37,514 nt of DNA from a virus: IMG/VR virus record IMGVR_UViG_3300030101_002233, positions 1-37,514 of that record; one strand, given 5' to 3'. Below, in pieces: positions 4,673 through 5,877 of this stretch. The stretch's first letter is position 1, and every line of letters starts with the position of its first letter. Both the position numbers and the translations under genes were made by a program. A model generated the notes under the pieces. It had not been told where the DNA came from, searched no databases, and worked only from the letters and a program-made list of their open reading frames with translations.

Positions 4673-5464
4673 CTATTTATTTTTTTTAGACCAATGGTCA
4701 GTTAAATACCTATTTACTACTTCTTTATGCTTCATTGAGCCATCATAATTGTCTGATACATCTTCATATTCATCATCATAATCATCATACTCTATTTCAA
4801 TTTGATTAGGGTCTGTAATCTCATCATCTCCTACATATATATCGCTTAAACAATCAGGGCAATACCTGTAATCAATACCAAATTCACTTTCTAATAGGTT
4901 TTCGCAATGACAATAATAACACTTATAATTTCCTAAATCATCTGTAATTACCTCTTTCTCTAAGTTGTTATGGTCTGCATACCAATAACTTCTGTTTGCG
5001 CCACTCCAATCTCCCCAATCATAATTACCATAGTCAGATGTGTATTGAAACTCATACTTATTAAAACCTAAATCATCTATTAATCTTTCTACCATAGTTA
5101 AGCAGTTGTTAGCATCATTGAAAACAACATACTCTTGGTCTGAATGAGGGTTGTAATAACCACAACTCATGTTTGCTACACAAACACCTATACCATTCTC
5201 TGCTAATTGACCTACATCTGTAATAGCACCTGATGTTATTTTATATCCATGATGTGCTAATATAGGTTTTATTTTTTTGGTAAATGCTTTACTGAATAAC
5301 TTGCCTGATATGTTATTTACAAAATCTGAATTACCTCTCCTGTCTCCTTGAAAACAATAGCCAACATTCTTAAACCAATTCATATCAGCTTGTCGGCTAC
5401 CTACACAGCCTATTTCTTCTGAATGAAAAAATGCACACTTGATTACATCTCTTGTAAGCAACAT
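4673..5464 (-). CDS. Peptidase M20/PepT-like, C-terminal part (after in-frame TGA)
   Basis: This 263-aa frame continues, without a frame change, the peptidase begun at 5800. It supplies the rest of the active site: FFHSEEIGCVGS (catalytic and metal-binding Glu pair, residues 16-17), QGDRRGNSD (Asp ligand) and NPHSDQEY (last His ligand). Beyond the catalytic part comes a zinc ribbon (CYYCHCENLL paired with CPDCLSD) and a very acidic stretch before a basic end. Alone it lacks the first two metal ligands, so activity would need readthrough of the TGA at 5477-5479 or association with the upstream fragment. The ATG at 5464 may just be an internal Met. Confidence 0.7.
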   Translation of the reverse strand: MLLTRDVIKCAFFHSEEIGCVGSRQADMNWFKNVGYCFQGDRRGNSDFVNNISGKLFSKAFTKKIKPILAHHGYKITSGAITDVGQLAENGIGVCVANMSCGYYNPHSDQEYVVFNDANNCLTMVERLIDDLGFNKYEFQYTSDYGNYDWGDWSGANRSYWYADHNNLEKEVITDDLGNYKCYYCHCENLLESEFGIDYRYCPDCLSDIYVGDDEITDPNQIEIEYDDYDDEYEDVSDNYDGSMKHKEVVNRYLTDHWSKKNK

Positions 5465-5476
5465 ATAAAGCGCTAT

Positions 5477-5800
5477 TCATACCCCTACTTTATCATCTCC
5501 GCCTACACCCACTTGTAGTCCTTGCGACTTATCAAAAGCAAACAAAATACTATCATCATCAAACACCTGAAACTCTTTGTGTATATCGTGAACTGTATCT
5601 GTATGAGAAACTATACAAGGGTATATATCGCTTTTACCTTTGGTAATATATATATTATTGTCTTTGATTTCTACTTTTGCATCAGGCACATTAGATATGC
5701 AAAAATCTTTTATGTATGAAATCATTGCATACTCATTACCACTTGTTGTTTGGATAGACAATATATCTATTAATAATTTTTTTCTTAAATTTTCTGTCAT
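5477..5800 (-). CDS. Peptidase M20/PepT-like, N-terminal part ending at TGA
   Basis: The 107-aa product is the start of a zinc aminopeptidase-like enzyme of the M20/M28-type clan. It has a helical start with SIQTTSGNE, then CIVSHTDTVHD (metal ligand His66, catalytic Asp68) and finally GVGGDDKVGV with the bridging Asp (102/103). It stops exactly where the conserved strand should continue. The next codons in the same frame encode IALYML and then the remaining active-site motifs. It is the first gene behind promoter P2. Either a nonsense mutation, a recoded TGA or a sequencing error explains the split; an intact enzyme would be about 375 aa. Confidence 0.75.
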   Translation of the reverse strand: MTENLRKKLLIDILSIQTTSGNEYAMISYIKDFCISNVPDAKVEIKDNNIYITKGKSDIYPCIVSHTDTVHDIHKEFQVFDDDSILFAFDKSQGLQVGVGGDDKVGV

Positions 5801-5845: not shown

Positions 5846-5877
5846 CAAAGATACGAATAATATTTGAATTGACCAAA
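5846..5877 (-). promoter_or_regulatory. Bacteroidetes-type early promoter P2
   Basis: The minus strand has TTTG (5877-5874), 20 bases, then TATCTTTG (5853-5846). It drives early operon 2 (5800 down to 815). The leader contains CAACTAACTAATG followed by TTTAACTAAAT before the ATG, like the leaders of P1 and P3. Confidence 0.85.

Follow-up and report, generated by a model that had tools for sequence, protein, structure and literature searches.

Readthrough of UGA in a phage gene is already known from the coat/A1 gene of Q-beta, in which the codon is read as Trp about 1 time in 15 (PMC8067240). Also known are in-frame stops in bacterial genes that evolve under purifying selection; these are mostly short-lived and have been suggested to lower expression (Belinky et al. 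2021, PMC7918605). Furthermore, crAss-like and other phages of Bacteroidota carry reassigned stop codons, e.g., in code 15 (PMC9523058). In the literature searched, we found no study of readthrough in Bacteroidota.

The stretch of viral DNA analyzed here (IMG/VR record IMGVR_UViG_3300030101_002233; 37,514 nucleotides, referred to as the window) contains a minus-strand frame of 375 codons (5800-4673) that is open apart from a TGA at codon 108 (5479-5477), which separates GGDDKVGV from IALYML. The original prediction that this TGA splits an otherwise intact zinc peptidase gene was borne out. Both halves share one phase, and the joined protein matched phrog_4191 (peptidase) across the junction at 6.9e-54 (residues 6-279), better than the separate halves (8.8e-15 and 6.7e-30). 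The apparent second open reading frame (ORF), at 5464, merely begins at codon 113, the first ATG that follows the TGA. The locus comprises the following features:

4673..5800, minus strand: complete peptidase gene of 375 codons, codon 108 being UGA; predicted M42/PepT-like zinc peptidase with a zinc-ribbon-like C-terminal extension
5477..5479, minus strand: in-frame TGA (codon 108), aligned with TGG (Trp) of relatives; within helix 101-116, right after the metal ligand D102/D103
5474..5476, minus strand: ATA codon 3' of the TGA in all TGA copies; the +4 base is A
5477..5800, minus strand: predicted truncated product of 107 amino acids, ending mid-helix, without EE, D153, and H219
4673..5464, minus strand: downstream ORF from codon 113, without H66, D68, and D102/D103
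5846..5876, minus strand: match to TTG-N20-TATCTTTG, 76 nt 5' of the start codon, which we take to be a Bacteroidota-type promoter

Like Q-beta A1, this is a phage gene with one start, a short and a long product, and a UGA at which a host tRNA presumably inserts Trp. However, the short product of Q-beta is the major coat protein and its UGA closes a full domain, whereas the peptidase UGA lies inside the catalytic helix and the short product is apparently useless. Q-beta is also an RNA coliphage, while the peptidase phages are double-stranded DNA (dsDNA) phages of Bacteroidota. With the bacterial stops of Belinky et al. the phage TGA shares an orthologous position and a low dN/dS, but the bacterial stops mostly persist on a population scale (71% of the pairs are identical over 30 bases) with high dN/dS (PMC7918605), in contrast to phage lineages that have diverged by about 20-40% in protein sequence with dN/dS near 0.1. 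Code 15 phages likewise infect Bacteroidota and read a stop codon as sense, as would be the case here, but in them many genes are altered and suppressor tRNAs are present, whereas in the peptidase phages one codon of one gene is affected and no tRNA was found. A homologous M20/M42-type peptidase, gp038 of Cellulophaga phage phi38:1 (AGO48068.1; 46% identity over 64% of the query), is annotated as a single uninterrupted gene, unlike the one studied here. Three things are unusual: the stop sits inside the catalytic helix and leaves a short product of no apparent use, it has persisted for long, and it occurs in this group of phages.

The joined protein contains the complete residue set of the MH clan (M42/M20), namely HxD, (G)DD, EE, D, and H, and the corresponding metal and catalytic residues (H66, D68, D102, D103, E128, E129, D153, and H219) are invariant in 56 relatives. 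As originally proposed, this active site is complete only when both halves are joined. The ORF from codon 113 would not be an enzyme by itself, since H66, D68, and D102/D103 are missing from it. The Pfam match to M42 was weak (16.7, below the gathering score of 23.2), and a profile built from the 56 relatives retrieved M42 aminopeptidases and peptidase T in a PDB search. In an AlphaFold2 model (mean pLDDT, 84), the full-length protein adopts a PepT/M42-like fold, with PepT (3gb0) and M42/TET aminopeptidases as best Foldseek matches (probability, 1.00; E value, about 1e-9). By residues and modeled fold, the gene product fits an M42/M20 (MH-clan) zinc peptidase, with the activity predicted accordingly from the model. 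Residues ~246 to 375 (window positions 4673-5065, minus strand) make up a C-terminal extension that contains a zinc-ribbon-like CxxC...CxxC motif (CYYC and CPDC) and a conserved terminal helix; it is missing from shorter homologues (about 245-265 amino acids), and its only Pfam match, to RNHCP, was below threshold.

We read codon 108 in each related viral contig fetched and found the same TGA in six more contigs from six other metagenomes, i.e., in seven of each including the window. Protein identity to the window is 78% for L002, 73% for L082, 74% for L083, and 72% for L086 (L132, L133, and L134 are the same contigs as L082, L083, and L086, respectively), and 58% for L003/L172 and L005/L178, which are near-identical to each other; the carriers come from different metagenome projects. 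This codon is TGG (Trp) in over 55 further close relatives; in more distant ones the residue is Trp, Phe, or Tyr and in rare cases His or Ala. TAA or TAG did not occur at codon 108 in the contig collection, and no homologue was seen as two separately starting proteins of the lengths found here. Among 591 ORF products scanned in 69 loci (772 kb), the codon-108 TGA is the sole in-frame stop backed by more than one homologue, and every one of the 49 homologous queries has W opposite it. Since no other homologue-backed in-frame stop was found in the 69 loci, assembly errors produce no background of such stops. Scans for the TGA motif in genome contigs gave 45 matches, all by chance, and a broader TGA pattern gave four additional matches in viral contigs, none of either set in a peptidase. 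One TGG contig, L192, shows an apparent frameshift at the GGDDK motif (about codons 84-104), with its match in two parts, which is probably a sequencing or assembly error.

The codons 3' of the TGA are under strong purifying selection, much as in the TGG relatives. Pairwise dN/dS in the core downstream of the TGA is 0.03-0.13 for TGA-TGA and TGA-TGG pairs versus 0.04-0.07 for TGG pairs, and values upstream are similar. With dS between copies of 0.35 to above 1, the stop has been kept over a long period of divergence. No TGA copy contains a further stop or frameshift, and neither relaxed selection nor added lesions, as expected of a pseudogene, were detected in these copies. In the five-member clade, codons 109 to 112, which separate the TGA from the next ATG, differ by synonymous changes only (GCG/GCC/GCA and CTT/CTA/TTA), a pattern that favors in-frame translation through the TGA over a restart. 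An extended conserved nucleotide signal was not found near the UGA, where synonymous divergence is ordinary (0.35-0.39) and only TGA ATA is fixed. An overlapping ATGA start at the TGA was considered and discarded, as it is not conserved (L133 reads GTTTGA). In the pairs of relatives L142/L143, L169/L179, and L157/L168, synonymous divergence is about half as high 5' of codon 108 as 3' of it (e.g., 0.18 versus 0.41), which suggests that the 5' part of the gene has undergone recombination or is under constraint.

The peptidase tree requires two changes at codon 108, and a single change occurred in 0% of the bootstrap trees. In an AU test on a tree without the deep rows, a single origin was not rejected (P = 0.49); a tree of neighboring genes also gave two changes, and 17% of its bootstraps allowed a single one. 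The TGA may have arisen either once or twice.

Elsewhere in the genome TGA acts as a true stop, as the original prediction had stated. Six further genes of the window terminate in TGA (minus strand; 31002, 18390, 7211, 2088, 1898, and 1012), each followed by a second in-frame TAA or TAG 0-5 codons on. In the TGA-bearing contigs, no homology-supported frame of another gene contains an internal TGA. The Trp codons of the window are otherwise TGG (about 138-151, at 32% G+C), and no tRNA gene was found in the window or the related loci scanned. A general reassignment of TGA, including code 4 (TGA = Trp), which the original prediction had already considered unlikely, was rejected on these grounds: there is one internal TGA per genome, and the codon terminates other genes.

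In 6/6 distinct copies the TGA is followed by A, a permissive context for readthrough (UGA followed by A or C), but at most two independent lineages stand behind this weak association. ATA as codon 109 occurs in only 5/40 TGG relatives of the same clade. In E. coli, UGA followed by A is reportedly misread by tRNA-Trp particularly readily (PMC5289835, citing Engelberg-Kulka 1981). Judged from phage relatives only, the host family would be Flavobacteriaceae: the terminase kin of the window phage are Croceibacter and Cellulophaga phages. Flavobacteriaceae carry an ordinary tRNA-Trp(CCA), with the same arm matched in 86/100 genomes. Three of these tRNAs were read over their whole length: they have A9, G24, and an anticodon stem of 5 bp, and they lack the suppressor changes discussed in PMC13092985. 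After the UGA, neither folding energy nor covariation gave a signal of a stimulatory RNA structure beyond noise; such structures are not obligatory and accompany only some known cases of readthrough. A long RNAalifold stem near the UGA consisted mostly of invariant pairs and was rejected. As no RNA stimulator was found, the readthrough efficiency may be low.

The TGA is probably a retained, functional leaky stop that is read as Trp by the host tRNA-Trp at low efficiency, giving little full-length enzyme. The majority of ribosomes would terminate at the UGA and release the 107-residue fragment as a dead-end product, while a minority would misread UGA-A via the host's normal tRNA-Trp(CCA), place Trp at the position of the relatives' TGG, and complete the 375-residue M42/PepT-like enzyme. 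The outcome would be a peptidase at a low, fixed dose, expressed from a gene with its own putative promoter, and this low dosage may be what is beneficial. Alternatively, the UGA could be a regulatory switch, gained twice independently at the same codon, at which readthrough varies with release factor 2 (RF2), Trp-tRNA charging, or infection stage, so that the peptidase is timed and dosed by the translation state of the host; we regard this as unlikely. Efficient suppression, in which phages or hosts supply a UGA-reading tRNA-Trp or a weakened RF2 and the peptidase reaches a normal level or appears only at one infection stage, is also unlikely. The linear, possibly incomplete contigs could miss a suppressor tRNA, and alternative codes with suppressor tRNAs are known from Bacteroidota phages (PMC10879173). 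Furthermore, across the phage family a second stop follows within 5 codons in 72% of TGA-ended genes versus 51% for TAA and 58% for TAG, but these percentages include homologous genes and gene overlaps, so that the excess may reflect either leaky UGA or overlaps. Efficient suppression fits poorly with a single in-frame UGA per genome against all the TGG codons, with the lack of tRNA genes in the loci scanned, and with the single tRNA-Trp arm shared by 86/86 matched Flavobacteriaceae genomes, including the three full reads.

A two-piece enzyme, produced by termination at the UGA and restart at the ATG of codon 113, with both fragments assembling into a peptidase, is improbable. Every TGA copy has this ATG, which at 12 nt from the stop is near enough to allow coupled restart, and both parts are under purifying selection; yet the break falls within helix 101-116, the catalytic helix would be left with a gap where codons are skipped, these codons vary only synonymously, and Met113 is equally present in the TGG relatives. 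The original prediction had also offered a recent nonsense mutation or a sequencing error, and in-frame stops are indeed widespread and usually short-lived in bacteria (PMC7918605). Both options have become very unlikely, and a pseudogene with them; occurrence in seven contigs of seven metagenomes, the large divergence, and the selection on intact downstream codons refute these readings in substance. As to the inserted residue, the earlier proposal of programmed readthrough with Trp or Cys is supported for Trp, judging from the homologues, but not for Cys. Selenocysteine, for which UGA is the codon and which could be imagined near the metal site, has next to no probability: relatives have Trp (others Phe or Tyr) but never Cys at the site, and neither an Rfam match or SECIS-like element nor a tRNA-Sec was found.

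The locus provides a comparative case of a dsDNA phage enzyme that would rely on readthrough of a stop inside its catalytic core, showing neither a suppressor tRNA nor an RNA stimulator. Gene callers split or drop such genes, and similar cases in viral metagenomes may go unnoticed. The peptidase TGA could also be used as a simple system in which to test how leaky UGA is in Bacteroidota.

The match at 5846..5876 was called a putative promoter from the Bacteroidota consensus. TTG-N20-TATCTTTG is likewise matched upstream of the peptidase in most TGG relatives as well as in L002, L133, L134, and L172. In most of the phage family, a closely similar promoter-like block, TTGGTNNNTTCAAATATTATTCGTATCTTTG, stands 5' of the peptidase gene, with a partly fixed spacer reminiscent of an operator or repeat.
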